Of a stretch of 64,000 bases of DNA, positions 2,589-31,084 are shown piece after piece. Source of the stretch: Polytrichum commune. Lineage: Eukaryota; Streptophyta; Polytrichopsida; Polytrichales; Polytrichaceae. The position numbers were made by a program, and so were the translations under genes. Positions within the stretch are counted from its first letter, which is position 1, and every line of letters begins with the position of its first letter. Where the stretch lies: NCBI GenBank assembly GCA_950295325.1, contig OX485808.1, positions 27,236,527 to 27,300,526 of the forward strand. The letters run 5' to 3'. The notes beneath the pieces were generated by a model. That model was not told the DNA's origin, ran no database searches, and saw nothing but the letters and a program-made list of their open reading frames with translations.

Positions 2589-2589
2589 A

Positions 2590-3539
2590 ATGATGTTGAT
2601 TGTTGAACCTAGACTAGTTACTCATAGATAGAGTATGTAGTCCAATCTCTCTTATAAACACATATCCTTAAACTGGTATCCATTGTTGGAGCCACACCCA
2701 ACCACATACTACTCAAAAATAGGTGTCCGATCAAGATACGTAACCAAATTAGGCACGTCTACCTTACTTCATGCAGATGTCAACAAAAATTACCTTGCAC
2801 GACAACAAGCTATCGCAATCTACCAGATTATCACATCACAATCTACATTCACATTGCACAATGTCAAAACATCACATGTACTAAGAGGCCTTTCCAAAAC
2901 ATCAAGGGGTCAAGGTGAGCGGCCCTTAAACAAATATTTCTAGCCACGTGTCACTTCTCGTAGGATACGAATATGCAATTAGTGCAAGATGATCAACAAA
3001 CCCAAATCATGCATGTAGTCATTTGTGCATGTTTTTTTTTGTTTTGGAGATCATATGTATTATCTTAATCATATAGATCCTCCCAATTATGTCGACTGCT
3101 ATTGAGCATGTGGAAATGATCATTTTGTTCAATTAGGGTGATTTCAAAGGCCAAAGTTGCTTACCCAACTTAAATGTGGGATACTCAATAACTTACCATC
3201 AAAATGCATAACTTAATATTCTATATTAGAAAGATGTTGTAAACTCTTGCCCGGAGTTTCTTGGGGTGAGCAACGCATGCATTTGTACAAAAAAAGATCT
3301 ATCTTATCAAAAAATAGATCATGTGGTCCAAAGAAATCTCCTCTAAAGTTCTAAATAATGTGCACACTTTATTCCTCACAAAACAACTTACAAATTTCTC
3401 CATTGGGTGGAACCATCTCGCACCCACCCGCCACTACTAGTACGGGTCCACCCAATGGTCGTTATCTAGTATAAACTTTTGCGAACTGAATTTCTTGTTC
3501 AACTGTGAACTTTAAGAATTCCAATCCCACTTTTTATGA
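2590..3539 (+). repeat. Left part of an interrupted 2.3-kb repeat
   Basis: The stretch aligns by eye with 58055-59050 at high identity, apart from small indels (the far copy has about 40 extra bases near 58543). The match stops abruptly after ATGA at 3536-3539 and resumes at 19239, next to a second ATGA. The far copy is continuous across this point. The 86-codon frame at 2683-2943 is repeat sequence and is not kept open in the far copy. Confidence 0.85.
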
Positions 3540-3656
3540 TGTCGTGTAAATAGCGATCGTGTGTCACTGTAGCTCGAGTACCAATCATCACCAACAAACA
3601 ACACTAAAATATAGTAAAGTCATACATAAACAACACACCTCGACATGCCCCCCCTC
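3540..3656 (-). other. Candidate short 3' LTR and polypurine tract
   Basis: On the minus strand a purine run (GAGGGGGGG, about 3647-3656) is followed by a segment that starts TGTCGAGG and ends CACGACA (3645 to 3540). It therefore has the TG...CA ends and short inverted termini of an LTR and sits directly at the insertion boundary. At 106 bp it would be unusually short, and I found no matching 5' copy near 19234. Confidence 0.4.
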
Positions 3657-3932
3657 AGCTGACTATGGAGTCCCGCCAAGCAGCTAGGACTGATACCAAT
3701 CCAAAGGGCATGGATAATGAAAGATTGCTCCGCAACTAACTAATGTGGTAAACGTCATTCCAAGGAATTGGAGGTTGGGTGCAATGTGAGCCCCATCCTT
3801 AATCGCCTCTGATGTTTGGCCATTAGATTCTAAAGATTTAATTCCACCGCCTCATGTTGTTTGCATCTCTAAGCCATAACTCTTTATTTTCTATTTGGGT
3901 AGACACAAGATGATGAAAACCACACAGGATCA

Positions 3933-4106
3933 TTAAGTACGATTGGTGGAAGCACCAAGTACTAAAGATCCTCGACAACGAGGACAATTCCACTGTCCAG
4001 ATGGTGGAGAAGTCAAGGGTGGCCTCAAGCATGTCATGTGCCAACCACGTTGACAATGATCACACAAGAACATAGTAGCCGCTCATTTCTTCTCTCCACA
4101 CACAAA
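3933..4106 (-). pseudogene. PHD-type zinc finger at the end of the retroelement polyprotein
   Basis: In the integrase reading frame, directly after a TGA (4083-4085), the minus strand reads a cysteine/histidine pattern typical of PHD fingers: VCGEK, then LCDHCQRGWHMTC, then WNCPRC, ending at a TAA (3933-3935). The spacing fits Cys4-His-Cys3 except that the first cysteine position reads tyrosine (YFVC). PHD fingers read histone H3 tails, typically K4 state, so in a retroelement this could guide integration or chromatin choice; that role is inference. Many plant gypsy integrases end in a chromodomain instead. The broken first ligand and the stop show that this copy is inactive. Confidence 0.75.
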
Positions 4107-5291
4107 ATATGGAAGACCCTCTAGCACGACGGCCAGTTCAAGATGAAATGTACCCTCAATGGGTAGATGACATGTGACATATTTTTTGGAATGCTCGCGA
4201 CATTCCCTGCCATCTTTGCCTTCCAACAACAACAAACCACTCGGCAACACCTCCTTCACCCAAAGGATAGTGCGCCCCGCCCTGACATCCAATGTCGTAG
4301 ACGCCTCACGTTGGAGATAAACATAATCCCCCTGCCGGAATCTCTGCAACTGAGGTCGGTAAGCACCACTGCGAATGCGTGTATAACGCAATGTGCCACG
4401 GTGTTGAGCAATGGACAAATTCTCCATGGCCATAGGCATAGCCCTTTGGAAGAATTGAGCCCGCTTCTGCAAACACTCTGCTCAAATGTTTGGGTCATCC
4501 AAGTCCACAACATGAGCTAGGTTTTCCCGGATAGAATTTGGGAGTATAGGCTCACGTACATACAACAATTGATACGGGCTGGAGGACGCCAAAGAGACAT
4601 GCCTACTAAATCGATAGCCCATAGTAATCCAAGGCAACATAAGGTCCCAATCCCGAGAGATGGTGCGGTGATCTATAAGTGCCTTCGTGCACAACTCCTC
4701 AAAAGCACCGAGGAACTCCCTCCCTTGATCCGTTAATACCTTAGCCGGTGCTCCAAAACGTGCCAACACACGATCCAAAAAGACGGCCGAGGCCAACTCT
4801 GCAAAGTTTTGGGGTAAAGCAACAAGCTCAATCCACTTGCTAAAATGCTCCACCATCACCAACACATACTTTGCTCCATGTGGCGTGACCACCAACGGCC
4901 CCGCAAAGTCCAACGACCAACGGTAGCCCAATCCCATGATAGGTAAGGGCTGTAATTGAGGTGACAAGGTGTTAAAGCTAGATCTGACCCAGTCACATAC
5001 TTCACACCTCCCGACATAAGCAGCCACCTGCTGATACATGCCAGTCCACCAATATTGGCCACGCAACATTGCACGTGTCTTGTGTATGCCAAAATAGACA
5101 AGTTCCTCGTGTACTTGTCGTACCAAGGAGGCCCTTTGATCCAGTCTAGGGACAATACGCCTTGTCCCATCCGACCACAATTGAAATAACAAACCGTTCT
5201 CCCAACGGAACCTTGTTATTCGATGTCCAATCATGTCATTTTTCATTGCCGAGGTAGACGAAGGAAAGGTCCTCTGCTGAAGTTTATGCAA
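4107..5291 (-). pseudogene. Ty3/gypsy integrase, internally deleted
   Basis: The 269-codon frame 5291-4482 carries the N-terminal zinc-binding motif (His61, His70, Cys96, Cys99 of that frame) and the catalytic core with Asp128 (LDFAGP) and Asp188 (LTDQGREF). The next 129-codon frame (4472-4083) is the C-terminal domain, with a basic beta-rich stretch and GLLLLEGKDGRE. After HRTISR the sequence jumps straight to DWDLMLPW, so the segment that normally carries the third catalytic acidic residue (Glu) is missing in frame. A frame break near 4475 separates the two parts. The enzyme would normally insert the element cDNA; this copy cannot. Confidence 0.85.
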
Positions 5292-5445
5292 TACGGGAAG
5301 ATCCTCCTATATATCCGCAATAACTTGAGGTCAATCAGTCTCATCATCCGAGCCCTGCATCGGAACCTCAATAGCCGCACCAGAAAATAAACTGAGGTAA
5401 GTAGCTGTGCCAACCTAGAACCGCCTCTCGATCACAATTTTCATG

Positions 5446-6969
5446 TCACCTGGCCCCGGTCAAGTCCTCATCCGAAGGACTTGGATTGCGTGAGAGTCCA
5501 TCTGCATCTAGGTTGGTAATCCCAACTCGGTGCATCACCTCAAAATCATACTCTTGGAGCAACAAAGCCCATATGGCGAGCTTGCTAGTAAGCTTATCTG
5601 ACTCCATGAGCCACCATAACGGTTGATGGTCAGTCACCAAAGTAAAGCGTTGACCATAAAGATATGGCCGGAAATGGGCAATAGCCCACACTGCCGCCAA
5701 TGCTTCTCCCTCATAGGACGAATAATTGGCCTCCGCCGTGTTGTTGCTTCGCGACTTGTAAGCAACAACATACTCCCGGCCAACGTCATCATTCTGAGTA
5801 AGAACTGCTTCCAAACCCAATGAGCTCCAGTCCGTATGCAATTGGAAAGATTTGGAGACATCTCGAAGTCGAAGCACTGGAGCCATACCCAATTTTTGCT
5901 TCGATGTCTCAAATGCCTGTTGCTGCTTACAACCCCAAGTCCAAGGTTGGTCCTTGCTCGTGAGAATGGTGAGAGGCTTGGCGATCAAGCTAAAGTTCTT
6001 GACGAATCGACGATAATAATTCGCCAAATCCAAGAAAGCACGAAGTCTCGGCACATCGACCGGTGCCGGAATCTTCTGCAAGGCGTCCACCTTAGCTTGT
6101 TGTACCCCAAGACCTTCTGGAACAATCATATGCCCCAGATATGCTAGCCATTCATGGAAAAACTTGCACTTGCCGTGGTGCAAGCGCAATCCCCACCGCT
6201 GCAACCATTTAAAAACGGCTTGCAGATGCCTCACATGCTCATGTGATGTCCTACTGAAGATGATCACATTGTCTATGCAACACCGAGCAAAAGGCAAGCC
6301 AGAGAGGACCTAGTCCATCACCCTCTGGAACTCAGCAAGTGCATTCTTCAGGCCAAATGAAAGAAACTTCCAATGGTAAAGTTGATCATTCCCATCTTGA
6401 TCAACTCCCCAGAATGCGGTTTTCACCCGATTTCCCACAAGTAATGGAAGCTGGTGATAGCCAGATCTCTAGTCCAAGGTGCTAAAGACCCGAGAAAATC
6501 CAATGGCATCAAACAACTCCTCCAGGATTGGCAAGGGATACCGATCCGACTTGGTCTTCCGATTAATTGGACAGTAATCCCCATACATCCGTTTCTCCGT
6601 TCAATTGCCAAAGATATCCTTCTTCGATGGCATAACCGTAGCACAAACATACTCCCCGTTGGAAAGTTCAATTAGCCTTGCTGCCAAGAGCTCTCGGCAA
6701 CGAGCCTGAACGCCAATCCGCTCGGAAACATTGAGCCTATAAGGTCTTCGAAAAATGGGATGGTCATCCTTCAACTGAATGTGGATGGGGTTTCCTTTAT
6801 AACCTTCAAGATCCTGAAGGCTAAAAACAAAACACCTACGGTACGAGCGAATAAATGCTCGTATTTTCCGTGCCTCAGCACTAGTGAGATGAGGGCCTAC
6901 TTCCAATGGCCAATCATCAAACTCTGTGGTCTCCCTCTTCACCAAAGGGGAACCACATGGTGTTGGCAC
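5446..6969 (-). pseudogene. Ty3/gypsy reverse transcriptase and RNase H
   Basis: The fingers and palm start in the frame 6969-6601 (RPYRLNVSERIGVQARC, then ATVMPSKKD) and continue in the same frame through stops to the frame 6297-5446. The active-site box reads CIDN at 6268-6279, where the family has a YxDD-type box, so one catalytic aspartate is replaced by asparagine. RNase H follows, with HTDWSSLGLEAVLTQ, YEGEALAAVWAI and LVTDHQPLWWL. These would copy the element RNA into DNA. At least three in-frame stops lie between 6300 and 6610. Confidence 0.9.
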
Positions 6970-7300
6970 GAACTCTAACTACTACTCATAGGAGGGGGCA
7001 TTAACCATGCCCCCAATCTCGATGCCAACAGTAGAGCTTGGCCTCCTTTCATCACCACCAATATGTGATGATGAAGCCACAACCGAAGGCGAAGAAGTCA
7101 AAGCAGTATAAACCCGTTGATCTCGAAGCTCTTCCATCACTTGCTACTCGAATCAAGAGATTTGTTCGATTCTCCAACCATGGCCTCAGTTCCTCCTCCA
7201 TGAATGTGGACTACTGTGCCCCCTGACCAGAGTCCTCTGCCCCCAAAGACAACAACTGATCATCATGATGCCGTTGCAATGCAAAGCATAAACCAACAGT
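6970..7300 (-). other. Spacer between methyltransferase and reverse transcriptase
   Basis: The minus strand here reads as polyprotein linker in the reverse transcriptase frame up to about 7010 (TVGIEIGGMVNAPSYE), interrupted by stops. The part nearer 7300 is low-complexity with no recognised domain. Confidence 0.5.
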
Positions 7301-8275
7301 CTACACCATGGTGTTAAGATCCATGGCTTGGCCCAACACGAACCGCCGTTGGCCCTCAGAAAGGCCAGGAACTGTTGTGATTCCGGTCCGGAATCCTATA
7401 GCACGCTTCCGTTTGTCGGCAATAGGTTCGTAATGGGTTTTTGTGTGAGCATCCCACACCATACCAGGCCCCCGATCGCGGAAAGCGAATGACTGTAGAA
7501 ACATCATAAAGGTGGGAAAGGCCCACCGTGGTGCCCCCACTTTGTTGACCAATGCCAACGGGGTAAATCATCTCGAACAATCGGCAAAGAGGTCCGGTTT
7601 GGATCCAAGATGTCATCCACCTTCTGATCAAAAGGTGGAGGTATTGTAGAAAATGCTGCAGCTAAAGTAGATGACGATGCGAGGTTGGTCTAAATCCACC
7701 GAGGCCAGTGGGCATAAGAACCAATGCTCGCGGCATCCACAAAAACGGGATCTCCAAGGTGTTGACGAACATAATGACCGCCTTCCAATACCTTGTCCCA
7801 AGAGTCTCCCAATAGAGGTACATTCTCAAATATGTATCCTAGGGTGAAAGGTTGGTGGGTAAACCACCACTGCATAAGGTGGATGAGGCTAGACATGGGA
7901 TCCTCTAAGCCTTGGCATGCTCCAACACGTGAGTGGCCCTGGCATGGCCATTCCGCAATCACCAGATCAACGATGCTCAACCTTCGCAAGTTTGCTGATA
8001 AGTGTAACATCATGAGGAAGACGTCCAAAGCACCCACGGATGGCAGTCGGATGGAGCTGGTGTGGGTACAACACCATCAACTGGTGTAAATGGTGACGTG
8101 CCACCCGGGTGGAGATAGGATTGTTGTCGACATAGATGTAGTGTCGAACGATGAGGCCAATTTCCAACACAGCCGCCAATCCCATCCCGATGCCCCCAAA
8201 CAATTCGACCAAAGTAAGCTGTGAGGCCAAAACCACCCCCCTTAAGCGTCCTAGTCCGGGTGATGGTGTTGAGAA
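7301..8275 (-). pseudogene. C5 cytosine DNA methyltransferase domain carried by the retroelement
   Basis: Reading the minus strand across frame breaks gives the conserved motif order of DNA (cytosine-5) methyltransferases. Motif I, the AdoMet-binding loop, is VELFGGIG (8186-8209). Motif IV is PCQGHS with the catalytic cysteine (7930-7947). Motif VI is ENV (7819-7827). A motif VIII-like stretch is FVDAASIGSYAHWPRWI. The C-terminal block has KRAIGFRTG and QRRFVLGQAMDLNTMV (7301-7558), like motifs IX-X. The arrangement and wording resemble DRM/DNMT3-like enzymes more than bacterial ones. Breaks are a TGA at 8276-8278, a frameshift near 8000, a TAG at 7690-7692 and a frameshift near 7560. It lies between protease and reverse transcriptase on the same strand, so it was very probably part of the pol polyprotein. 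In an active element it would methylate cytosines using S-adenosylmethionine. Confidence 0.88.
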
Positions 8276-9967
8276 TCACATGTATTGTTCGTATCAAAAG
8301 AATGATCTCTTTACATCCCAAGGCATTCATGTCATTTTGAATCACTTTGTTTATTAGTAGTGACCTCTTGGCTTGTGGCCGAATTGGCCTTCTCAAGAGT
8401 CCAACCGGCAGCCTTGGCAACACAAGCTCTCAAGGATATTCTCCTTGCGCCTTTGATTATCCTCTCCTTCACCTTGCCAATGCTAGAGTCCTCCTCTTTC
8501 TCCATTGTTATATAAGTGATTGATTTTTGACCAAAAATGATGTAAGTGTTGAAAAACACTCCCTCAATGGTTAACCTCAAATACAGTTGCTTGTAAAAAC
8601 CACACACCCTCCTAGCTATTTAACCACACAACTCACACATTGACTAATTTCATTAAGTCATCTCCCTAAGTCTTAATTCTAAAGTCACCCACATCACTCA
8701 TTAGTTGATGGTTTCACTAGCTTAATCTCCAACTAATCCTTAGATCTCCTAATCCCAGCTCGGCTTGGTACACCCTTGATCTGGTGGTACTTTCGGTTGA
8801 ACACATAGCCCCTTAATCTGCTGGCCTAACCGGTAACCTTAGTTTGCTGGTCGAACATGTAGCCTTAGTCTGCTGCCCAACCGGTAACCTTAGTCTGCTG
8901 GTCGAACAGGTAGCCTTAGTCTGCTGGCCTAACCGGTAACCTTAGTCTGCTGCCCAACCAGTAGCCTTAGTCTACTGGTCGAACAGGTAGCCTTAGTCTG
9001 CTGGCCCAACCGGTAACCTTAGTCTGCTGGTCGAACAGGTAGCCTTAGTCTGCTGGCCCAATCGGTAACCTTAGTCTGCTGGTCGAACAAGTAGCCTTAG
9101 TCTGCTGGCCCAACCGGTAACCTTAGTTTGCTGGTCGAACAGGTAGCCTTAGTCTGCTTGCCTAACCGGTAAGCCCTTAGCCTGATGGGCAGAGCTTAGT
9201 ACATTTGCAACTAAGGTTTGGCCAAGCTCATTAATGGCCCTAACTAACACACTAATTAGGGGTCCACCTAAAGGGATTTCAAACTACACACTAATTTGGT
9301 GACCCTAAGCCTCTAATCAAATACTTTGCTACTTGGTTTCTATGATTTGGACTAATTAACTAAACTAACTCCCTAACATCACTAAGGGCTAACTAATCCA
9401 CACACGTGGCTTTCAAGCTATAAGAGCTCACTCCCGTGGGAGAAATTGAGAGAGAGAGCTTAACTAACTAACTTCACTAGAAACTAACAATCCACACACG
9501 TGGCTCAAGCTCTTAAGAGCTTGCTCCCTTGAGAGCGTTTGATGGAGAGAGAGGAAAATGAGAGAGAAAACACCTTAAGTAGCAGAGAGGGAGAGAGGGA
9601 GAGAGAGGTGAGGATAGGGTGAGAGGATTAGCACCTCCAATCACAATCCCTTAACCTTCACCTTCAAAGTAGGGACTAATCCCCTTCCACCAAGCTTCCT
9701 TCTTCCTAAACTACCAAGGTGGATCCAAAAGTGGGCATTTAACCCGCGGAGCTCACCTTGCTTCACCTTACCCCCTACTCACATTATCAAGGCATCCTTC
9801 TATTGAGATCAAACCTTAAAATAACCACACAACACATTCTAATGCCTAAACTTAAATCCACACCACACTTCACTCTTTTTATGTTTTGTGAATAATCATA
9901 ATACATCAAAGTCAAACTAAAATTGGTTTTGAAGAGTTAATCACCACATGTGGGCACCATTTTGGGC
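8276..9967. other. Unassigned segment between protease linker and methyltransferase
   Basis: No gypsy domain is visible over these 1.7 kb. A 91-codon minus frame (8607-8332) is unrecognised. A 26-bp minisatellite occupies 8811-9172, and GAGAGA-rich tracts lie at 9440-9610. I suspect a further nested insertion, because element genes are usually compact, but I could not define ends or a target duplication. Confidence 0.45.
8811..9172 (+). repeat. 26-bp minisatellite with 52-bp dimer order
   Basis: About 14 units share the start CCTTAGTCTGCTGG, followed alternately by CCCAACCGGTAA and TCGAACAGGTAG, giving a 52-bp higher-order period. A few units deviate by one base or one deletion. Confidence 0.9.
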
Positions 9968-10579
9968 TCACATAAGCCGCCACAAAATGAGATGTGCCAA
10001 TGCCGATGGGACATCCGGTATGACCGGTGTCCTAGGAGTGAGAGAGAGGACAATGTCCTCACACCTCCGGAACAGCTCGGCGGAATCGCGCCAGGAAGGA
10101 AAGGGATCCTTGGGATGGCGCACCAATGCACCCTTAGGTGTCATATCCCGTTGATCGTCTGTACTCCCCATGAATGCTAATGATTCCTCCAACAATGCGG
10201 AACCATAAGGCAATGTGTCCACAATAGCACCACATCCAAAAACCATGGATAATGGTGCTATGGTCGCGACCACCGCAAATGCCACAAGAATAAGTTCCCT
10301 GTGGCTGTCTCCAGCCGACCAACCTAGTCGGATCCAAACCACCTCAGTCTAGTTGTCCAAACCAAAACCAAGGGGGTATAGTGCTTGCTGACCAACTAAA
10401 ATGTCATAGTTGGTCGCATCCATCACCGCACACCTAAGAAGAAGAGGTGCGGATGGATCTCCGGGCTTCACGTGGAAGCTAAGTTGTAATGGCTCCCACG
10501 TATAACATGTGGCCCGCTCCACGTAGCCAACCGATGTAACAATGGTAAATGGGCAAGGAGCCAAGTTGTCGGCCGTCAA
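9968..10579 (-). pseudogene. Retroelement aspartic protease, C-terminal half, and linker domain
   Basis: The minus strand reads LAPCPFTIVTSVGYVERA and ends with ATNYDILVGQQALYPLGFGL, the typical second half of a retroviral-type aspartic protease (the YDILVGQ stretch). A TAG then interrupts the same frame, which continues into a 124-codon linker (10342-9968, starting WIRLGWSAGDSHREL) that I do not recognise. The N-terminal half with the catalytic DSGA lies at 11553-11640; a solo LTR at 10580-11552 splits the gene. Confidence 0.8.
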
Positions 10580-11552
10580 TGTCGCGCACCTCTCCATGAG
10601 GAGTGCCCGAAACACCATGGGCACAAGGGGGACCCCGGAGTGACACCCGGGACTTGTGGCGCCGTTGGTGAGAGGGCCCAAGTGATCCTAGTGTGGGTGA
10701 GGGCCCCGGGCGTTGGGAACGCCTCCCACCCACGGAGACTAGGATGCACAAGGGTAAGGCCATAAGCTATGCGTAGCTCATGGCATGGTGATTCTAGAAT
10801 GCTCAAGAACACCTTAATCGGAGGTGTGAGCTAGGAGTTATGGCCATTTGAGTGGGGCGCTGTCCCGGGACAGCGCCCTGGTACAGCAGTGCCTGGGAGT
10901 GATTCCCGGGACTGCAAAGGTTCAAACAGGCATAACTTCCTCACCACTTGCCCGAATGGGGCAAGTGAGGAGTGCATTGGCATCTACGTGAAGCGTAGAT
11001 GAAGATGGAGTGGTCAAGTGTTAGCATCAGACATCATACAAGGAAGTTATGATGGTCTGAAGCTGTGGGGGCTTCTAGGCCCAGCGGCTAAGGGAAAATG
11101 TCCACTTGGCCCCAACTCTTGGTAGAGAGACAAGAGGTTGGTTGACGGTGGGGTAGGGGCCCCGTGTAGAGTCCTAGAGGCTTATATGGGTGAGGTGGTG
11201 TGGCCTCACCCACCCGAGGCCGAACGGCACAGCCTCCATGGGCATTGGCCCATTGTGAGGCCATAGTTGCCTAGTATGGTTCGGGTTGTTGTAGTGTTGC
11301 TCCGGCAACGCGATGATCAACATAGGATTGGACTTCCATGGATGGAAGTCCACATCCAAGAAATGAGTTACCGATTAAGGGGTGAGTCCCGAAAGCAAAG
11401 TAGGAGGGTTGGTTCCCTCCTATGAACTATAAGGTCCGGGGTAGGAAGAGCTAACCATTAGCATGGCGGAATGCGAATGGTTAGCGCTCGTAACCTTTGC
11501 TAGAATTGAAAATTGGCAAGATTGTCAAGGGGGGCTAGCAAGGGTTGCGACA
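10580..11552. mobile_element. 973-bp solo LTR inside the protease gene
   Basis: The segment begins TGTCGCGCACC and ends GGGTTGCGACA, so it has TG...CA ends with a 5-bp inverted TGTCG/CGACA terminus. An exact 5-bp duplication GTCAA flanks it (10575-10579 and 11553-11557). Removing it and one GTCAA joins the two protease halves in frame. It contains no polyprotein domain; the frames at 10479-10812 and 11174-11359 are chance. It is most simply a solo LTR left by recombination of a different retroelement. Confidence 0.9.
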
Positions 11553-11700
11553 GTCAACCGCAATTCTTGTGCAAGTTTTTTGCCGATCATAACAGGTTGT
11601 GCTCCTGAATCCATCATCACACACTAGGGAGCAACGCGAATACGGTTGCCCCCAGCCCGACTAGCCACCAAAATGCCAGAATTATTCACCATACGTACAA
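11553..11700 (-). pseudogene. Retroelement aspartic protease, N-terminal half
   Basis: The minus strand reads VMMDSGAQPVMIGKKLAQEL; the catalytic Asp-Ser-Gly-Ala is at 11600-11611. The frame runs directly into the GTCAA target duplication and the solo LTR. Such proteases cut the gag-pol polyprotein. Confidence 0.85.
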
Positions 11701-11860
11701 CGCCAGGTCAGATGCCTTGACGCTCGCGAGCAGGTAGAGCAACGACATCTGAGAGATAAGCTACGCTCGCGGAGGCTGGTGAATCATAATATGAGCTGGG
11801 CTCTTGGCCATCCAAGGTGTATGCATCAAAATATGCAATGGCCTCTGCTGCAAGTCTTGC

Positions 11861-13454
11861 TCATCGTCTAGCCGCTACCTCCGGATCCTCCATGGTAAAA
11901 AGGTCAGCGGTGGCTTGAGCCACAGTCAGAGAAGACAGGGGTGCATTTCCTTCCAAAATCCTACCTGCTAGGTGAAAAACCTTAGCAGGTTGGATGCCGC
12001 ATGATGACCACTCCATCGTTGTGAACAAAGGGGTGTGCAACACTTTGGATGCCAAAGTGTGTACCACGTCAGTTGCCGGATTCGAAGCCTCCAAGCTTGA
12101 ATGACGACCACTAACAGATTGGGCAGCATCCGCCAAGCCAAAAGATAATGGCAGACGAGCATGGCCAATCTGATCCGCGGGACCATTGTCCCGAGCTCGT
12201 AAGCTATCCACAGACTCCCCTGTGGTCGAGGGCGTGGCTCGTGACACGGATTGAGCTCGTATCACCGTTGCGGAACTCATCACCTCACCCGAGGCTCCAA
12301 ACATATAATAATTTGGAGTGGAAGAACTAGTGTGAGCTCCGGAGGAAGACGGCGAGTCCAAGATTTGGCCTGAGGACGCCAAACTTTTGAAACCTCTCCT
12401 CCAAGGCTCCAATCTTTGCCTCTAACGTTTTTTTCCGTTCCGAAGAAGGACATTTCTATGGATGGAGAGCAAAGCAATTTTCCACCGCGTGATTGTTCCA
12501 CCCACAATGGGAACACTTCAATTGCTTGGGTAACTGATTATCTGTCCCCTTCGTCGAATTCTTAGCGGAAACAACTAGTTTCCGCTTTGGATTACCTACG
12601 GTTTGGGCTTGCCTTTGCTTCAAAGGACAATCCTTCTTAGCGTGGCCTGCGTGTCCACAAGACCAACAATACAAAGTTTTGTCCACCTCTGCCTCCGCCA
12701 ATCCTGCAGCAGCAACCGGAACCTTCCGGGATTTGCTAGAATCCACTGCATGGACACCAAGTTGGTGGCGTTATGCTGACACCAGACACGATCATACTGC
12801 TCAACAATGGTGAAAACCTCTCCAAGTGTCGTCCGGCCACCATAATCTATGATGATCCTGGGCATCGCTAAGTCAATGAGGCGTTTGTCAATCTTTGACA
12901 AAAATACCTTCACCAACTGGTTCTCTGTGTGAAAACACCTCCAGATTCCCTGGAAAATGTCGCCAATCTCGTGTACATGGTACGATGGCAAACGTTGCCA
13001 ACCTCGTGTACATGGTACGAGGTGTATCCTCTTTCTCCCGTCGAAAGTCCTGGATCCGTTGCATTTGATCTCGGCGGAGACCTCCATATTCCTCCTCCAA
13101 ATGGACTTGGAATTCATGCAGAGGATCAAAATCAGGCGGAGCCCCTAAAGAGACGAATGCCGCATGTGTAGCCTGGGCATACCGAGAGAGTGGAAGACTC
13201 AGATTCGATGTACTCGCAGATGCGGGCGCGTGAGCCTTATCTTTAGGCTCACCGGGGAAACTTCCCTCCACATCCATCACAACGACGCCCTTGGCTTACT
13301 CCGACTTCACGACATGAACGACCAATGAACTGGAAGTTGTGCCTTCCTTTAATGTGGAAACCAACTCCACCCGAGTCTCCCAGTGTTGCTCCATCTGGCG
13401 TAGCTCCACCCAATGAGTATTCTTCCATTGCTCATAAGTCTAGAGCACCTTTTG
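11861..13454 (-). pseudogene. Retroelement gag with two CCHC zinc knuckles
   Basis: The frame 13280-12888 has a capsid-like stretch (FVSLGAPPDFDPLHEF, RREKEDTPRTMYTRLATFA). The frame 12746-12456 carries two zinc knuckles: Cys27-Cys30-His35-Cys40 and Cys78-Cys81-His86-Cys91, both C-x2-C-x4-H-x4-C. A serine-rich part with heptad-like sequence follows in 12412-11861. Several frameshifts and stops (for example a TAG right after the second knuckle) separate these pieces. Gag forms the particle that packages element RNA. The N-terminal part lies at 17269-17546 beyond the nested 3.8-kb insertion. Confidence 0.8.
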
Positions 13455-13709
13455 TGTCGCGGCCCGCATTTTTTTGAAATCTTAAGTAACCTTGTTTTAA
13501 GTTTAAAGAATATGTTTGACCAAGGAAAACATAATAAGTAGAGTACTTTATAGGTAGATTGTTAGGTAGGTTATTTAGAATTGAGAAGAAAAATTAAAAT
13601 CCTTAAAATAGTTAAAAATATCAAATTAAGTTAGTGTTAGGAATTCCGTTTCGACTCAGAAACCTTAGAGCGGAGCGGAACGCACAGACGACGGCGGGCC
13701 GCAACCACC

Positions 13710-15173
13710 ATGGCAACCCAAACCCGGAAGAGGATCACGGACAAGCCGGTAGCCTTCCGCAAGGTGCACGTGGTCACCCCCACTGGTCGAGAGGAGAGCA
13801 ATGAGTTGGAGGCAGACTTGAGGCGTATGGGCTGCCTCGGGTTATGGGAAAAATCTTGGAGAGTACGATGTGAGGAGATAGTGAGGGAGTTGGTCACTGG
13901 GGAGGTGGACCAAGTTTACGCTTCCACCATCCGGGGCCGACCGGATAGGTGGAATGCGGAATTGTGGAGTAGGGTTTACGGGTTCAAGCAGGGAGGAGAA
14001 GGTATGGCCACTAAGAGAGAAGATTGTACCAGGGACAAATACTCCCAAAGGTTGGACCCCAAGTATGGCTATTTTGTGAAGGATTGTAAAGACGAGAGGG
14101 AAAGGAGGATGTTAGTTTTTCTAGTGCATATCTTTAGCCCGGAGAAGCCCTATAACATTACTCTTACCCTTGCCACCACCTTACTTCTTGCATACTCCGA
14201 GAAGAAGGTGGTGGATTGGGGGAGCATCATTGGGGAGTTGGTGCACAAGTTGGCAACCAACACTAAGCGCAGCCAACCTTCCTACATTGGGCCTTTCCTC
14301 TTCTACCTTTACGCACACGAAACCTACTCACAGATGAAGAGGAAACCCAATGGACATCGCATCAGTTCATACGGGAGCTTTAGACTACCGATTCGGAGTC
14401 AGAGATGGGTCATGAGGGTTCGAAGGAGGAAGATGTGGGAAGTTGAGCAACGAAGAGCGGCCCGTGACCAAGAAGCGAAAACTAATGTTGGGGAATCGTG
14501 CGACACGGACCAGGTCCGCCACCAAGCCCGTAGGAGGTGGAACCTCCACCTTCCCCTTGGAGGACAATCCGGTGGACTCATTATCCGCGACTTGGAGGGA
14601 GTACGGTCCCGGATTGCGGAATATGAGCTACAAATGCAACAAGTAGGGGAATTGGTGGGCAACCTTCCGCGGGAGAGTTTAGTTGCCGCAATACAGGAGG
14701 CCATCTAAGATCCGTGCCGGTTGCAGGAGCTGGAGCATAAGGTGGACCACCTTGATGCGGAAAAGTGGAAGACCGCGGAACGAGTCCGGAAGTTGGAGGT
14801 GGAGCGAGAGAAGCTCCTTAAGCAGGTAAAGGATACCACCTTCACGGTACAAAAGGTGAGTGATGTGGTGGATATCCCGGGGAATGTGTGGTGGAAAACC
14901 AAGATGTTCAACGCGGAATTGACGAATGCGGGCCACATTTCCGGGTTGAAGATGGTTACCTTCATCATGGATCAAGGGAGTAAGATGGACGCATCTTTGA
15001 AAGCAATGAAGACCCTCATTGCTAGTTGCACGGAGTTGTTTCCCGTCGTAGTTGAGTCATTGGAGGAAGAGGAGTCCTCATCGGGCTACTCCGACTTGAC
15101 CCCTCATAACATGGTGGAAATTCAGGTTGCCGCGGTAGAAGGTGGAAACCAACATGCGGAAGAGGTGGACTAA
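13710..15173 (+). pseudogene. Unrecognised element-borne ORF with coiled coil, one in-frame stop
   Basis: A 332-codon frame (13710-14708, ATG after GCAACCACC) ends at TAA and continues in the same frame from 14709 to 15173 (151 codons), so the ancestral product was probably about 487 residues. The N-terminal two thirds look globular and helical (YFVKDCKDERERRMLVFLVH, then LATTLLLAYSEKKVVDWG, SYIGPFLFYLYAHETY). The part after the stop starts with a clear coiled coil (LEHKVDHLDAEKWKTAERV, VEREKLLKQVKD). Frameshifted acidic and proline-rich remains run on to about 15587. I do not recognise the family; it has the feel of plant transposon-associated proteins. It lies inside the 3.8-kb insertion, on the strand opposite to the host retroelement. 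Confidence 0.65.
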
Positions 15174-15589
15174 ATGGAGGACATCACGGCGATCACGGCC
15201 CATGCCAGTTTCCACCACTAAGGTGTTAGTTCCCAATGCCACCCCAGTTTCCGCCGCGGTTGGAGAAGAAACCCTGGGTGATTGTCACGTGGCCGAGGTG
15301 ACAACACCGAGCCTTGCCACGGACTTCCAAATGGTCGCCCGGGATCCGCCGCCACTTGCAATTCTTGCTCCGGGATTTCCGCCGGACAACCAACTGTCGC
15401 ACCACTGGCACCGGACGTTGCGGATACGGTGGACCGCGTGGGAGTGATTCCCGGACCCGATGGACACGAGGTGTCAGTGCCACCACCACGTGCTTCATCT
15501 TTGGCAACGGACAGAGCGGACCGCCACAAGGGCAGAAGCATAAACAAGAAGGAAGCCAATCTGAAGAAACGGAAGGATAGGGAGTAGTT

Positions 15590-17268
15590 TTTAGTTGGGA
15601 TTCCATTTTGGGTTGTTTTGGGCAAGTAGTTAGGTGGCCCCGAGTTGTGTGCCTCATCATTTTCTTTATTTGGGTTTTGACCTCTCAATGAGGTGGATTG
15701 TCAGAACTGCCACGTGACCCGCGATTTCCAGCATGGGAACCATGGCGCGTAGGTGTTAGTTGATTAAAGGGGGGGAGTACTTCGGTGTTTTCCTCATCAT
15801 TTTGCAATACAAATGTTCTTTTGTTCAATTTGGACCTTATGCTTTACTTCACCTTCGGTTTGAGTTGAGTCTTAAGTCCATGTGTAATGCAAGTGGTCCT
15901 TCCTTTCCGTACTTAAGGTTTCCGAGTTTCCACCATTCCCTATCACTATGTAGGTTAGTTAGGTTAGTATTCCGTGATAGGACAGGGGGTCAGTAATACC
16001 CCGAAGTGCGTATGGTTAAAACGCCCCTATGTGAGCAGGTGATGGGCGGAGGAATCTTAAGCACGGAAAGGCGGAAAGGATTGGACGAGCAAGGGGAAAG
16101 AACCCCACCGTGGGGTTGTTGGGCAAGGGAAGTTCCACATATACGGTAGGTTCTTCCCCACTTACTCCGTCCAATTAGGGACCGACAATGAGCAGCAGTG
16201 AATAAACCTGTCCAATAGTAGGGGAGAATTCTGGTTTACGCCTTTTGCTTGCCGTGACCTGGAGGTGGATCACACCGATTAGCAGTAACGGACTGGTCTA
16301 GAACATTCATGCACCTCTCGCGACTGGCGTTTGGTTCCCACCGCGGATGGTAGGCATGGTAGCCCCATCCCTATGTTAGCCCTGCCGTTACGGAAATCAA
16401 CAGACCTTAGGTCCTATCCTATGTGACTTGTGGAACAGCACAAGCTACCCATTGTGAGGATAGGAGCGAAGATGTTGTGTTTCCACCTTTCTCGAGGGAG
16501 GATTCGGTTTCCGTGTGTGGTATAGTGGAAACTGTGTCATCACGGAAACCGGATCAAGCTGGTTTTGTAGACCCAAAACTTCCTCCACCTTTCCCCCCGT
16601 CAAAAGGGGTGGCACGCGTCGGATACTTGAGTGGGACATCTTCCCGAGGGAGGGCTGCCCCCATCATAACACTAGTCTAAGGGAGTAGTAGTTAGAAGGA
16701 GGAAGTGGAGATAGGGAGACAACCCTAAGAAATCAACCCAAAGGGTGAAATCCTGATGAACAACTACCAAGTCTCTCTGAGCATTCTAGCCTAAAACACT
16801 AGAATTATTGTCCTTGTGACACGGTCAAAAATCTAGCGGATAGTGGAAATACAGGTCAGATCCACTATCTCTATCGCGGAAACCTTATCCCGGAAGTCAT
16901 AACCCGTAATAAAGAATCTTAGAATGGAGTGTATATAGTTGTTCTACTATGGATTTAGGATGCTGAGTCTATTGTTGTTACTACTATAGGGTGGGAACTT
17001 ATCCATACCCTGTGTTGTGTTCCCTACCTCGGTCCACTACCGGAAATGCGGAAATATCCGTGCCATACTTTCCGTAATATCCCGGATTTTTTAATCCGAT
17101 TTGTATTATCTTAGTTTCTGGTGTTTCTTGTGTGTGTTAGTGAAAAATTTCCTCCCTCTGTGTTGTGAACGACCGCAAGTTCTTCGTGGGAACGAATTTG
17201 GCGCGGCTATGATGTTTTACGCGTTTATCATGTTAATTTAATGAATACGTCACCACCGTGCTACGACA
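15590..17268. other. Non-coding right part of the 3.8-kb insertion
   Basis: No recognised coding sequence is present. Near 17190-17215 the words TTCGTGGGAACGA and TTTGGCGCGGC resemble the LTR-end and primer-binding region of some plant Ty3/gypsy elements, but they sit only about 60 bp inside the right end, so the resemblance may be accidental. Confidence 0.4.
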
Positions 17269-17546
17269 TCGTGCTCCAAATGTTGGGTCAGTAATTCAAA
17301 CGCATACCAGTCATTGAAACTGGTATTGCGTTGACGCTTCTTCCTCATCCATGTTCTGAACCAAATTTTCCAATCTTGCAGGAAAATGGTCCCTGCTCGA
17401 CCGAAAAATCGGTCCCGGATGCCGCCTCGTATCTTGTTAAAGGATCCTATGTAAAAGATCTGAGACTGAGTGACAGTCCCCCACGGCGAAGTAGGCTGAA
17501 AAACCTCGTCGGGTGTTACCACTGGTTCAATGTCTAAGAGGTCCAA
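17269..17546 (-). pseudogene. N-terminal part of the retroelement gag
   Basis: A 92-codon stretch from an ATG at 17546 ends with FNDWYAFELLTQHLEHD, where the nested 3.8-kb element interrupts it. Content and frame continue into the minus-strand gag at 13454 and below. The stretch SFNKIRGGIRDRFFGRAGT is basic. Nothing further upstream looks coding, so 17546 is the likely gag start. Confidence 0.65.
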
Positions 17547-19234
17547 TGATTGACCTTCCGATGATGCCGGAAACGAAGAACGATAATGTTGGCTCCGAGT
17601 TGTAACCTTAAACCCGCAATGGGTTCGGTCACTGGAGCCAACAACCTAAACTAATGTGGTATCAAGATAAATAGTCAAAAGATGAAAGACAACCTGCATC
17701 TGCAACACCACCAAACTTATGGTCTGTTGGTCATCAATCCAGCCTCACTATAAGGAAATACAAGCACCGCCCACTTGGTGCACACACAAGGATCCCGTCA
17801 GTCATTACTCCGACCTCATTCCTATCACAAACTAATGCAACAGGAAATGGGGCAATGCCGACAACTGCCAACAATACGGCCCGCCACTGGGGAAGGTACC
17901 AAAACAAAATACAAAAAATAATGCAATTTTCAGCACTGGATCCTCTTTCCCAAAACAACACTTAAGCAAAAATAAAAATTGACCGTATCCGCATGCGGTT
18001 GGTGGTAAAAAATGAGGGCTTCCTGTTGCTTAGGAAAAGAAAATGGCATTTATGCACATATCTCATCTCCCCACTACTACCTAAGAACCATTCCTTACAA
18101 CAATGCCGGGAATATGTGTTGACAAATACAATTCGATCCTAATAATAATTTATTTTAGGCCGAACGGAAATTCCACATGCCACCCAATCTCCAATGGCAC
18201 CCCTTGGAAATTTCGTCCAAAACAATCCCTAAAAGAAATCCCAAGTACCTTAATATTTCATAAGAACTTTGGGTTTTTACCATGTATTCTTGATTAATGA
18301 AAACAAAGTTTCCGCCAAAATCCGTCTTTCTCCATCCCCATGAAATTATCCTCTTAGAGAGAAAAGAAAAATTAGAAGTTGAAAAGAAACATAAAATAAT
18401 TAATTAATTGAATTGAATAAAAAAATACGGTTTGAAATAAAAGTAAAAATTAAAAGTAAAAAAAATTAAAATTAAACAAAAAATGCAGCAGCAGATGCCC
18501 GCCTGCTGGTAGACGCCAGTATGGGCCGGCCAGGGTGGAGCCAGGGAGCTCCGGCTCCCGGAGGCCTCCTCTCCTCTTTTTTTGTGTTTGATTCAAGTTT
18601 CTTCCACTGAGAATCACAACTCCGCTTCCAAAGCTCAATGTCACGAATTCAAGTTTGAATGTGAGCAAAATAACATGAAATTCCGTGGAGATTTCAAAGA
18701 TTTCTCACTACACTTCCTTTTGATGTGACATTCACAAGAACATATTTTTCTTCTTGTTGCTTCAACAATGCGCGGCTTTCTCCGCTCCAAGACTCCAGCA
18801 ATTCGTCACTCTTTGCCCCCATGCACCCCCTTGCGCGTTAAATCTCAAGAATCAAGAAGAAAAGAGAAAAAAATAGAAAAATAAAGCATTCCGGCCAAGT
18901 GGGAAGGAAGAGAATCAAACACTCATAAGAACTTTAATATCTCTTCAAATGCACACAATGAGTCAAGCTATCTCTCACTCCACCACATGAAAATCCAAGA
19001 GTGTAAGAAAGGGGAGAAGAACTCAAGATTTATTGCGAACACATGCAATATTCACCTTATACAAGCTCTCTTCACACACTCACTCATAAGACTTAACTTG
19101 GCAAGAATGTCAAGCCAAGGAGAAGGCTCCTCACTTAGGAGCCTTCCTCTCCACAAATAAGATTCATCCATCCAAATCTAAATGGATGAAACCCAACGGA
19201 TAAGGTGTGGCCGCCGACGCCGCATACCATGACA
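17547..19234 (-). other. 5' leader and upstream end of the retroelement
   Basis: This is non-coding in both directions, with A-rich tracts at 18340-18490. By position it should hold the 5' LTR and primer-binding site of the minus-strand element. I found no clear tRNA-complementary site and no copy of the 3540-3645 segment. The 108-codon minus frame at 19490-19164 crosses the insertion boundary and is not a gene. Confidence 0.45.
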
Positions 19235-19238
19235 ATGA

Positions 19239-20549
19239 GTAAAAATTAGTCATTGTCCAACTTTCAAACAAATAGGTTTCAGGTGCCACAAGGGTCATGC
19301 CAAGAGTCTTTCCTGGATCAAAACCGAGGAAACACACATAATCACCCTTAGAATGGTTAGCATAAATACTACATCCAATAATGGACATGTGGTGTAGACA
19401 CCCAATACGCACCTTGTCGTTGGCGTGGTGCAGTAGGTCAGAGCCTACTAAGATAGAGGGTGCTAAAACCATCACCTGAACCAAAACCAACCCCTAAAAC
19501 CTTACACAAGAAGTACATATCGATCCTAAAAATGTCTTGCACCTTAATATCAATTCTTTGTGTTGATTTTGGGTCATAGCCCAAATGAAAATTTAAATCA
19601 TTATAACTTTTGCACACAAAATTCAAATACAACATGCTTTGGTGCAATGGAGCCTCACGTGATCTATTGCTAACAAGAATCCCTAAATGTTTTTAAACAT
19701 GATAACAATATCTATGCCTAATGCTTAAAGTGATGGTTTTTACCTCCAAAGTAGACTTGTCCAATTTGATTACTTACCTAAATCAAACACCTAGATTCGA
19801 GTGGTGCGTGGTTTGGTGTGGGTCCAAGATCAGATACCACACAAACACACATTTAACAGAGATTACACCGCGTGCTCAAAATATGATAACCAGTCTAAAC
19901 TTCGCAATCAACACAACTATATATGACCTTTCAATGAGCACGAGAATCGCCACTTCGATACAACTATATACAACTATAAACTTCGCGACCTATATACGAC
20001 CTTTTCAATGAGCACGAGAATCTCCACTTTGATAATAAGCTAATACGAATATAATCAACAAGTCAATCATATGAGCTCCAAAAATCACGAGGAAAGTGGC
20101 GATGGCCTTCATGTGGATTTGCTAACTATGATTCTCATACTAATCGCATGTTGTATAATTAAGGAGAAGTCGGCTCATCGGAAACAATATCCATTCAAGA
20201 CTCATCTACATTTCCCTTACCTTACTACAACACTTTGTGTGAGGTCCCTCTCAAGCTCACACCCAATGCCGAGCTCGTTAACTTAGTTACATGAAATGAT
20301 GGGCTCCAAGCCAGCCTTCTTTCGTGCGCCCAACAACGTTGAATTTTTTCGATTATTTTCCGCTCCCTTTTCGTACGCTCTCTGGCAGACCTTGTCATGT
20401 CATCTCACCTGTGAGTTAAGTGGCTCCCTCATCGTCGTACCAAACTGATCATTGCAGATTGTTTCGAGCTCGCCTCAAAAATCGAGCCGTGCTGCTGCGA
20501 CGACCACATCTCCTCGCACCGCGTGCCGCTTCGTTGACTCTCGAGCTCC
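19239..20549 (+). repeat. Right part of the interrupted 2.3-kb repeat
   Basis: The stretch aligns by eye with 59047-60382, including the 96-codon frame at 19721-20011 that recurs at 59541-59831. The match ends at GAGCTCCGCATC. The last 250 bp are more GC-rich and look like captured host gene sequence, with an acceptor-like TTGCAG at about 20452-20457. Minus frames here (19647-19438 and its counterpart 59467-59258) are kept open in both copies, but I recognise no protein. Confidence 0.8.
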
Positions 20550-21299
20550 GCATCTTTTTAGGTGCTTTTACCTTTGTTTACAAAAGCACCTATCAAGGTG
20601 CTTTTACCGTTCACAGCGCTGCCTGCATTTCATTGGCTGCCTACGGTCGGTTTTAGAAATCCACCCTGTGGATATACCACGTACCCTATGTGCGAGTGTT
20701 GGTCACTCTATAAGGTTTCCTTTAAAAATTTGTAGGAAATCATAAACATGCCGGAAATTTTTGATTTTTTCATAGTTGATCTTGCACCAGCTTTGCGGAG
20801 CGCTCAAAATTTATGAAAAAAAATAGTTTCAGCATCCCAACTAGGCACATATGAAATTTGGACGGAAATAGCCACCCCTACCTTAGTTCCTTCCAATTTC
20901 CTTCTCTTGGGTTGCTTCCTCGCGAGCCTCTTTGTCTCAATGACGGAGTTATGAGGACCAGTTCACATGGGTCCCAAGTCCCACTTATGTTAGCAAGTCC
21001 CAACATGGAGGCAAAGTCCCAACTTGTGAGCCCCAAGTAACCATTAAAAGAGTGTTAATTATCATTAAAGTCCAATCTTGATGATTTTATGCAAAAATAT
21101 TCGCAAGACTTGCATTAAGAGTTGGGTCTAGTTTTTGGCTCTACCCAACTCGCAACACAAGTCCCAATCCTCACCTCCAAAATCTGTGGCCATGTGGGTA
21201 TCCAGGTCGTACTTGGGACTTGGGACTTGGGATCCGAAGTGGTAAGTCCCAACTTTCATGCTCTCAACGGTTGAGATTGCACGGATTGACCTCAAGTGA
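20550..21299. other. Intergenic, with a small hairpin and a direct repeat
   Basis: At 20559-20592 an inverted repeat (AGGTGCTTTTAC ... ACAAAAGCACCT) can form a hairpin, followed by a third GGTGCTTTTACC. At 20872-20996 lies the partner of the repeat at 2453-2588. Tandem CTTGGGACTTGGGA words occur near 21215-21235. No gene is seen. Confidence 0.55.
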
Positions 21300-21307
21300 C
21301 TTGGGAC

Positions 21308-22890
21308 CAGGGTCCGCCAAGAGCCTAAGGCTAGTGTAAATGCAGCCTACAAAATTTGCGACTTAGCCTATAAAATTTTGAAAGTGTAGGACAAAGAGCC
21401 TATGGACAATTTAAAAACATAAGATATCAACCTATGTGATAAAAAACATGTAGGAAATTTTTCCTACAATTTTTTTAAAAGAGAGGATTTTAACCATTCA
21501 TCATTCTTCAAATTGGGAAATTAGTTGGCCTAAGTACATATCTTTAGGCTAATACTTGGGGCTCTTGGGTGGCACATAGGCGGATATCAATAATAACCCT
21601 AACTCCCTCCCCGCCGATCTTTACAAATACCATTCATCACAGCTCCTCTCTCTTTCTCTCTATGTGTGAAGAAGGCAGCGTCATCGACCTCTCTCTCTCA
21701 AGCAACGTTGAAGTTCTCCAAGTGTCGCAGATCAAGCAACTCTCTCTCTCTCTCTCTCTCTGTAGCAAGCAGCGTCGAAGTTCTCCAAGTGTCAGGCGTT
21801 TGTCAAGCGAAATTAGAGGGTCTAAATTTCATAGTGTAGACATGATTCGGGATCCTAGTGGGGCTGATTTAGAAGTTGCTTTGTCTTTTCAAAGATTGTA
21901 TGCTCAAGCAGTTTGTGATGCATTAGAAAATAGATTTGTTGACAATGATCTTATTGATTGTTTTAAGATTTTGAGCCCTATTAATTTGCCTCAAAGGCAA
22001 GTTGGCTTGAGTTCTTATGGAGTTGTGCAGTTGGATTTGCTTCTGAAACATTATGGAGAAGAAAAATGTATTGGGGGCACAACATATCCTCCATTGGTGA
22101 ATGTTGTAGCTTGTAAGCAATAATTCTTTGCTTTCAAAGTGCAAGGTAGTTGTGAATGAAATGATCGTACCTTCGAGGATTTGTGGACATCTATAAGTTG
22201 GAGTCCTTCTTTAAAACTGAAATTTCCTAACCTACTAACGCTTGCCGACATTGCAAGATGCCAATGTGTTAGTATTGCTACTTGTGAGAGAGCTTTCTCT
22301 GTGCAAAATAACATCAAGCAGAAGACTAGGAATCGAATGACAACAACACACTTGGATAGTGTGATGCGGGTGGAGATTGAAGGACCAACAAAAAATTTTG
22401 AGTTTATTTTGGAGGAAGCTATATCTTTGTGGAAGGATTCAAGAAAGTTTCGATTCTTGTTTACTAATCCTGAGAAATATCTTGCAGGAAGAGTAGAGGT
22501 TGAATCAGAAGATGGTGAGGACTTTCACCCTTAAACTCATTTGAATTTTAGCAACCTTTCATTATAATCAACTCTTTAAAAAAGAGTTGGTTAATCCTTG
22601 GCCTTCAAACGTGGTGAAGGGCTTAGCCAGGTTCAATTCATGCCAAGGATACCACTTAGTACTCATATTTTGAATTTAAAGCCTACAACATTAAAAGATA
22701 TGAAGGATTTTAAACCTACTAAAAATTAGTTTTGAAGGCAATTGGCAGGTAACTTAAAAACTCAAAAGGTTTTCAACTTACAAAAACTTGATATTGTAGG
22801 ATGCAACCTATGCCATGAGGGAAATAGCCTATGCCCTTTTAAAGAGGTAGGCAATTAACCTCAATAACTTCAAAAACTTTTCGGACCATG
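21308..22890 (+). mobile_element. 1.6-kb hAT transposon remnant
   Basis: The ends are CAGGGTCCGCCAAG (21308) and, on the other strand, CATGGTCCGAAAAG (22890), a CAG/CAT-type hAT terminus. An exact 8-bp target duplication CTTGGGAC lies at 21300-21307 and 22891-22898. It encloses a plus-strand transposase fragment. A CT microsatellite sits near 21740-21760. Confidence 0.85.
21840..22534 (+). pseudogene. hAT transposase C-terminal fragment (ZNF862-like)
   Basis: The first part (21840-22123) reads LAVALSF-like helical sequence with ALENRFVDNDLIDCFKIL. After a frame break and about 55 bp of decayed sequence, 22181-22534 reads LADIARCQCVSIATCERAFS followed by VQNNIKQKTRNRM and LDSVMRVEIEGP. This is the hAT dimerisation region in the form seen in ZNF862-like transposases. 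The N-terminal BED finger and most of the DDE core are absent, so the element is non-autonomous. Confidence 0.8.
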
Positions 22891-30230: not shown

Positions 30231-30273
30231 CACCTGCTATTAGCTGCTCAGCAAATCGGTGACAAAATTTATT

Positions 30274-30879: not shown

Positions 30880-31084
30880 TCTTCAAAATTGGCAACTGCC
30901 AAATTGGTGTGGCTAAATCTTTGTGGAAGGAGTTGCTGAGATTCTACACATTTGAGGTGAGTTTAAGAGTTTGCGGAAGAAATTGAGTGATGTTCAGTTG
31001 AGCTTGGCGACCATAATCCTCCTTCCATGTGGAGAGCAGTCCCAGCAACTCAACTCCCCTTGTGTTTTCCCTATCTATGCCAAG

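Follow-up and report, generated by a model that had tools for sequence, protein, structure and literature searches.

We examined if a C5 cytosine DNA methyltransferase is a working part of a Ty3/gypsy-type retroelement in a moss, a question raised by a 64,000-nucleotide stretch of the Polytrichum commune genome (contig OX485808.1, positions 27,236,527 to 27,300,526; "the window" below). An initial annotation of the window had placed methyltransferase motifs on the minus strand between the protease and reverse transcriptase (RT) of one retroelement copy. The motifs are there in the order given, spread over three frames: VELFGGIG lies in 7967-8275; PCQGHS, ENV and SIGSYAHWPRWI in 7690-8076; and QRRFVLGQAMDLN in 7301-7567. 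We take these to be motifs I, IV (Pro-Cys), VI (Glu-Asn-Val), VIII (Arg-x-Arg) and X. The window copy (3540-19234, minus strand) is a dead, insertion-riddled member of its family, with two frame changes and one in-frame stop between the methyltransferase motifs. Judged by comparison with its relatives across the genome, the methyltransferase is real, under selection and abundant, it is carried by recently mobile elements, and the expression and termini of these elements appear unusual.

The domain was scored against PF00145 (curated cut-off 22 bits), the check that had been proposed for it. The middle piece from the window reached 15.5 bits (E 0.012) and the window read-through, with X at the breaks, 16.7 bits (E 0.005), both below the cut-off; the relatives passed, with matches in 14 of 14 aligned copies (E up to 0.01; best E 3.4e-13), 41.9 bits for the first member and 46.2 bits for one intact copy. 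The NCBIfam dcm model scored 40-41.5 bits, below its cut-off of 100.65. Searching the PDB with the window read-through gave nine sequences at E up to 1, eight being DNMT3A (E 0.37-0.73, in register) and the ninth a ribosomal protein. The METHYLTRANSFERASE family profile recovered 54 sequences from the PDB (E up to 1), the best 29 being DNMT3A/B/C (1.4e-11 to 6.6e-9), followed by 4onj (2.1e-6; named just "DNA methyltransferase" and presumably a plant DRM), HaeIII and HhaI (from 4e-6), DRM2 (0.0014) and DNMT2 (0.022); no chain named DNMT1 was among the 54. Of 17 open copies, 15 retain the catalytic Cys, with Phe in its place in the other two, 16 retain the ENV Glu, and 16 the second Arg in motif VIII; the motifs run unrearranged from I to X in all aligned copies. 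By profile ranking and motif order, the enzyme of the element is a Dnmt3-like C5-methyltransferase. It does not have the DRM arrangement, in which the motif X half stands ahead of the motif I half; a host DRM as its source was rejected because a DRM-type exon of the genome (L059) has motif X before I and PCNN, whereas the element has the normal order and PCQ.

Copies were sought in the whole genome (407.8 Mb, 64 contigs, the window lying on contig C6). The window's central methyltransferase piece as query gave 150 scored copies from 493 candidates, all with E below 1e-39 and including the window copy; a divergent copy as query gave 125 scored from 573. Three places were common to both lists, so that the domain is present at no fewer than about 272 distinct places. 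In ten matches of the first search the open frame across it is 1360-1372 codons long; in fifteen matches of the second it has exactly 1386 codons and no inner stop. Ten copies were retrieved, each as separate 5' and 3' stretches. Intact copies consist of two open reading frames (ORFs), ORF1 encoding Gag, CCHC knuckle, protease and methyltransferase, and ORF2 encoding RT, RNase H, integrase and a PHD finger. In the intact copy that was scanned, ORF1 contained the CCHC knuckle, a DSGA protease motif (below the Pfam cut-off) and the methyltransferase; ORF2 matched RVT_1 (105 bits), RNase H (127), H2C2 (62), rve (54) and PHD (41.5), and is 1048 codons long in four of the ten retrieved copies. The order protease, RT, RNase H, integrase is that of Ty3/gypsy elements, the protease matches to Pfam being below cut-off. 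A survey of RT copies, which could have exposed the methyltransferase as a chance insertion, did not do so: of the 150 scored (from 1493 candidates), 120 had a listed methyltransferase match within 2 kb upstream (94, plus 26 from the divergent-copy list) and nine had one 2-12 kb away. Together with the PF00145 matches in the relatives, this upholds the suggestion that a captured C5-methyltransferase is integral to a gypsy-type family. Read from these copies, the family is large and recently active in the moss, and the methyltransferase is a permanent part of the predicted Gag-side polyprotein. Two methyltransferase-bearing copies (L017 and L018; G000:C4:14425724 and 14518392) lie about 93 kb apart and have open frames of equal length; the element may have been copied passively here by a segmental duplication.

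The same element was found once outside the moss, as the sole confirmed match of a scan of prokaryotic genomes: L062 (1-6194 of CADCWO010000201.1), filed as an uncultured Synechococcales cyanobacterium. Its ORF1 is open from Gag through the methyltransferase, the 5' end being cut by the contig, and is followed by TAG CAATCA and an in-phase ORF2 whose C-terminus contains the PHD finger (86% to a moss copy). The methyltransferase is 66-69% identical to three moss copies and ORF2 88% identical over 901 residues. L062 is one match in a 4.8-Mb bin and probably represents a eukaryotic contaminant of a cyanobacterial public genome bin. A viral scan with the family alignment gave L061, an open frame resembling the methyltransferase (33% identity) on an IMG/VR contig that lacks the element; an earlier viral scan with the window piece found nothing. 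A viral or bacterial origin of the methyltransferase, looked into by these scans, yielded these two confirmed relatives and nothing else, and as the scans use few peptide patterns, little weight is placed on absence.

Selection was assessed as the ratio of nonsynonymous to synonymous substitution (dN/dS). Within subfamily I the median was 0.41 for the methyltransferase (101 pairs with synonymous divergence, Ks, over 0.05; 17 copies with the domain stop-free) and 0.20 for RT (211 codons, 123 pairs, 17 copies, stops allowed). Between subfamilies, and against L062, the methyltransferase had a nonsynonymous divergence (Kn) of 0.21-0.28 with synonymous sites saturated; for L062 against the moss, Kn was 0.08 and Ks 1.96 (ratio 0.04) in ORF2, and Kn was 0.42 in the Gag-protease part. 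By these comparisons the methyltransferase is under constraint that is weaker than on ORF2 but stronger than on Gag-protease. That it is kept in two divergent subfamilies and in another organism despite saturated synonymous sites argues that it is under selection.

The methyltransferase had been thought to lie in frame within pol; it ends the Gag-protease frame instead, ahead of a conserved UAG of leaky type. ORF1 and ORF2 are in phase with one stop between them in eight of the ten retrieved copies (the other two have a small upstream shift), and the letters at the stop site are TAGCAATTA in all ten, each having UAG followed by CARYYA. Of 30 methyltransferase loci, which partly overlap these ten, 27 have TAG at the site, followed by CAATTA in 16 and CAGTTA in 8 (24/30 CARYYA); the remaining three have TAGTTA (the window copy), CGATTA and CAATTG, and three further loci have no alignable stop site. 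The second subfamily has TAG CAATCA (L055, L056) or TAG CAACCA (L058). The hexamer thus varies, amino-acid-changing differences included, mostly within CARYYA, which tobamovirus readthrough in plants is reported to require (PMC2754532). In the three moss copies checked and in L062, ORF2 has its first Met at residue 117, about ten residues ahead of the Pfam RT match (residue 128); as it comes after a conserved N-terminal stretch, readthrough would be the natural route to RT. No precedent for leaky stops in LTR elements was recognised in the literature searched, mostly by listings.

Comparison with intact copies gave the anatomy of the window copy, as follows.

3536-3539, no strand: 4-bp target-site duplication ATGA on the element's 3' side, identical to 19235-19238; the paralogous empty site agrees.
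3540-3645, minus: terminal repeat B, 106 bp, ending ACACGACA; 92% to the intact copy's B, and junction letters.
3936-4140, minus: C-terminal PHD finger with a stop codon within its first part; PF00628 39 bits on 3960-4082, and tblastn to intact ORF2.
4141-5408, minus: integrase, comprising an H2C2 zinc finger and the rve core and carrying a deletion near 4650; PF17921 52 bits and PF00665 46 bits on 4482-5306, and comparison with the intact copy.
5404-6978, minus: reverse transcriptase and RNase H; PF17917 116 bits, PF00078 37 bits, 88% to intact ORF2.
6979-6984, minus: ORF1/ORF2 stop site, here TAG TAG then TTA (TAG plus CARYYA in intact copies).
6991-7290, minus: ORF1 tail beyond the methyltransferase; tblastn to the intact copy.
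7270-8218, minus: Dnmt3-like C5-methyltransferase domain with frame changes and stops, ends approximate; motifs, Pfam, intact relatives.
8218-9976, no strand: inserted later, about 1.76 kb, containing a 26-bp tandem repeat and flanked on each side by TAAGC (5-bp duplication).
9976-10579, minus: ORF1 stretch from protease to methyltransferase; 89% DNA identity to the intact copy.
10580-11552, no strand: inserted later, about 0.97 kb, with GTCAA at each junction.
11553-12391, minus: ORF1, Gag-protease part with the DSGA protease motif; tblastn 76%.
12381-13451, minus: Gag with two CCHC-type knuckles; Pfam scan and comparison with the intact copy.
13452-17261, no strand: inserted later, about 3.8 kb, containing plus-strand open frames at 13641-15173; comparison with the intact copy.
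17262-17624, minus: Gag N-terminal part; tblastn 66%.
18903-19234, minus: terminal repeat A, about 333 bp, which forms the 5' end of the element and starts TGTCATGG; 88% to the intact copy's A.
19235-19238, no strand: 4-bp target-site duplication ATGA on the element's 5' side; junction letters.

The order protease, methyltransferase, RT given by the annotation stands, with two amendments: the window's DNA between protease and methyltransferase is largely the later 1.76-kb insertion (in which the 26-bp unit is repeated at 8772-9211), and a stop separates the methyltransferase from RT. A junction duplication was looked for at the 3.8-kb insertion and was not found. A paralogous empty site at 58056-60382 matches both flanks of the element (2589-3539, 89%; 19235-20554, 95%), which proves the insertion and its ATGA duplication.

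The termini follow neither of two familiar plans. In eight of the 11 copies examined, repeat A (333-334 bp) opens the element, and the 3' end consists of B (106 bp), a GC spacer, a second A and a second B (A-internal-B-A-B); the flanks are identical 4-mers in all eight, and the two A repeats are 97.9-100% identical (100% in two of the eight). The other three copies (e1, e4 and the window copy) are A-internal-B, with no second A or B after B in the window copy, and have 4-mer duplications in 3/3, so that 4-bp target duplications accompany 11/11 copies. The elements thus lack the two full direct long terminal repeats (LTRs) at the ends of Ty3/gypsy elements; nor do they fit the DIRS class, which has a tyrosine recombinase and lacks target duplications, since they have an rve integrase and 4-bp duplications in 11/11, and no Phage_integrase match was found in the copy scanned with Pfam. 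Directly after the first A (offset 0 in seven copies, 1 in e10) stand 12-15 bases complementary to A positions 124-139 in 8/8 copies, the longest match in shuffled controls being 8-11 (200 shuffles per copy); the decayed window copy keeps 7 bases of this complementarity. A G-run ending in CA stands ahead of the first B in 8/8, and a G-run plus CA lies just upstream of B in the window copy. Six copies share one junction between the second A and second B, while it varies in e9 and e10.

These features suggest that reverse transcription is self-primed and that DNA circles are opened for integration. The minus strand would be self-primed, as the bases just past repeat A can pair with positions 124-139 inside A; the plus strand would begin before the first B, giving a linear product B-GC-A ... 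B-GC-A. Circle closure would join A to B, and the variable junction in e9 and e10 is as end joining would give. The integrase would open the circle at the B-GC-A junction with loss of GC, 2-LTR circles yielding A-internal-B-A-B and 1-LTR circles A-internal-B.

The PHD finger matched 82 PDB sequences at E up to 1e-4; among the best 60 of these were CHD4, PHF12, KMT2D, KMT2C (named MLL3 homolog), ATXR5, DPF3, KAT6A, KDM5-type proteins and UHRF1. Several of these fingers read H3 tails unmodified at K4, and on that ground we propose that the element's finger may read histone H3 tails and guide integration, perhaps to silent chromatin. No precedent for PHD fingers in LTR elements was recognised in the literature searched, mostly by listings.

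Put together, UAG readthrough would yield a minority Gag-protease-methyltransferase-RT-integrase product. Because the stop falls between methyltransferase and RT, the methyltransferase would be made at Gag rather than Pol level, in excess over RT and integrase, and be packaged in particles, where it could act before integration and methylate the double-stranded cDNA or circles of the element itself. Such methylation would be the most likely function of the predicted enzyme. In falling order of certainty the proposed steps are readthrough, self-priming, circle opening, methylation of cDNA or circles, and PHD guidance; the reading as a whole (a moss gypsy family with Gag-side methyltransferase, leaky UAG, self-priming, circles, cDNA methylation and PHD-guided integration) we consider probable by a small measure.

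Several points weigh against it. Among the matches listed, 21 of the 150 RT copies have no methyltransferase within 12 kb; these may be deletions or have matches beyond those listed. Within subfamily I the dN/dS of the methyltransferase (0.41) exceeds that of RT (0.20). RT could possibly be made by initiation at Met117 of ORF2, just ahead of the Pfam RT match, and A-internal-B copies could arise from B x B recombination instead of 1-LTR circles. CpG depletion in recent copies was looked for as a sign of self-methylation and was not seen: observed/expected CpG was 0.80 in the ORF1 part and 0.74 in ORF2 of an intact copy (0.67 in the methyltransferase-to-PHD part of the window copy, 0.63 in L055, 0.56 in L058, and 0.57 for window DNA outside the element), so that the elements show no sign of having themselves been CpG-methylated over a long time. 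Finally, a yeast test of the Klebsormidium relative by its authors was negative, without being decisive (PMC5890265).

The enzyme might instead act in trans on chromosomal DNA, marking resident copies or host DNA and damping the transcription of the element, with the host tolerating many copies. This possibility, one of those offered by the 2018 authors (PMC5890265), would accord with the high copy number and with an excess of C-to-T singletons in 24 copies (0.31 per CG, 0.23 per CHG and 0.23 per CHH, over 0.10 for transitions at A/T sites), as expected of methylated resident copies. That spectrum fits methylation in all contexts by whatever enzyme and does not discriminate, since host enzymes alone would yield an equal one; moreover, self-damping is hard to maintain by between-copy selection unless the packaged protein acts on its own cDNA. 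We think trans action unlikely. A domain that acts on RNA, or that serves as a non-catalytic nucleic-acid-binding part of the particle, would suit a location on the Gag side adjoining RNA-binding knuckles, and an RNA target was raised for LINE-borne enzymes in the 2018 paper (PMC5890265); retention of the catalytic Cys, Glu and Arg in 15, 16 and 16 of the 17 open copies speaks against this, as do the closest solved relatives, which are DNMT3-group DNA enzymes, with DNMT2 far lower (E 0.022). We hold this explanation doubtful. That the methyltransferase is a chance passenger in one retroelement copy, as the stops and insertions filling the window copy might suggest, is refuted by at least 150 and at least 125 listed places with the domain, in frame with Gag-protease in intact copies, and by its being retained in both subfamilies and in another organism, with 64-69% protein identity and saturated synonymous sites.

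As to the host, the genome gave 34 exon-wise matches to PF00195, a family that also occurs in bacteria. The best of these was closest to PDB 6dx7, with 9jl6 and 9kah (681 bits; next 551), and 6DX7 is named as Physcomitrella patens (PMC8580882). A moss-like chalcone synthase thus bears out the expectation of a land-plant host. DNMT-bearing retroelements have been described in dinoflagellates and Klebsormidium (PMC5890265), and a 2019 paper gives such elements as absent from land plants (PMC6338049). No land-plant precedent was recognised in the literature searched, subscription papers and preprints being largely outside its reach.

Elsewhere in the window there is a segmental duplication, 23064-33234 and 43101-52795, also 40701-42406 and 53547-55268, about 20 kb apart and 93-96% identical in pieces; each unit has a plus-strand open frame (23695-25101, 43668-45206) that by eye is protein-kinase-like. 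An inverted repeat of about 330 bp (904-1243 and 1441-1780) is 94-97% complementary with GC-rich inner parts, and plus-strand open frames at 21548-22534 resemble, by eye, a hAT-type transposase remnant.

If the reading with cDNA or circle methylation and PHD guidance is true, the element carries its own silencing mark and picks its landing site. Each of four features, the Gag-side position, the leaky stop, the PHD finger and the circle-like termini, makes a prediction about the time and place of the mark, and the young intact copies in the moss open a direct test of why a transposon bears the kind of enzyme that is used for transposon silencing.

Parts of this design have counterparts in known systems. 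Self-primed LTR elements such as Tf1 have, after the 5' repeat, a primer site complementary to their own RNA; the moss element shares such a site, its complement lying 124-139 bases into repeat A. The tobamovirus type I leaky stop has the same UAG then CAR YYA (PMC2754532), whereas in the element, where readthrough is predicted from the letters, the stop sits between methyltransferase and RT. Ginger1 transposases include one family listed with a C-terminal PHD, with Ulp1 beside it (PMC2836005); they share with the moss element a C-terminal PHD motif on a relative of gypsy-type integrases, but Ginger1 is a DNA transposon. DIRS-type elements share the A-coding-B-A-B repeats (PMC5890265) and have a tyrosine recombinase, in contrast to the rve integrase core and target duplications (11/11) of the moss element. 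SymbioDIRS-Dnmt3 and SymbioLINE-Dnmt of dinoflagellates (PMC5890265) are likewise retroelements with a C5-methyltransferase, the DIRS type with split repeats; they use tyrosine recombinase or LINE machinery, whereas the moss element has a DDE integrase and 4-bp target duplications. As DIRS, KnitGypsy and the moss family all have split repeats, we offer tentatively, as less than probable, that circle-passing retroelements capture methyltransferases repeatedly since an exposed double-stranded circle needs marking ahead of integration, the moss family delivering in its particles an enzyme encoded Gag-side of a leaky stop, together with a chromatin-reading PHD on the integrase that chooses the landing. 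Closest is KnitGypsy-Dnmt3 of Klebsormidium nitens, with gypsy domains, an unrearranged Dnmt3-related domain, DIRS-like repeats and purifying selection (PMC5890265); compared by description, the moss element may work like it and be kin by common descent. New by comparison are the Gag-side enzyme (on the Gag-protease side of the stop, whereas that of KnitGypsy-Dnmt3 is in the Pol frame), the PHD finger (none mentioned for KnitGypsy-Dnmt3 in that text) and a land-plant host, a moss in place of a charophyte alga.
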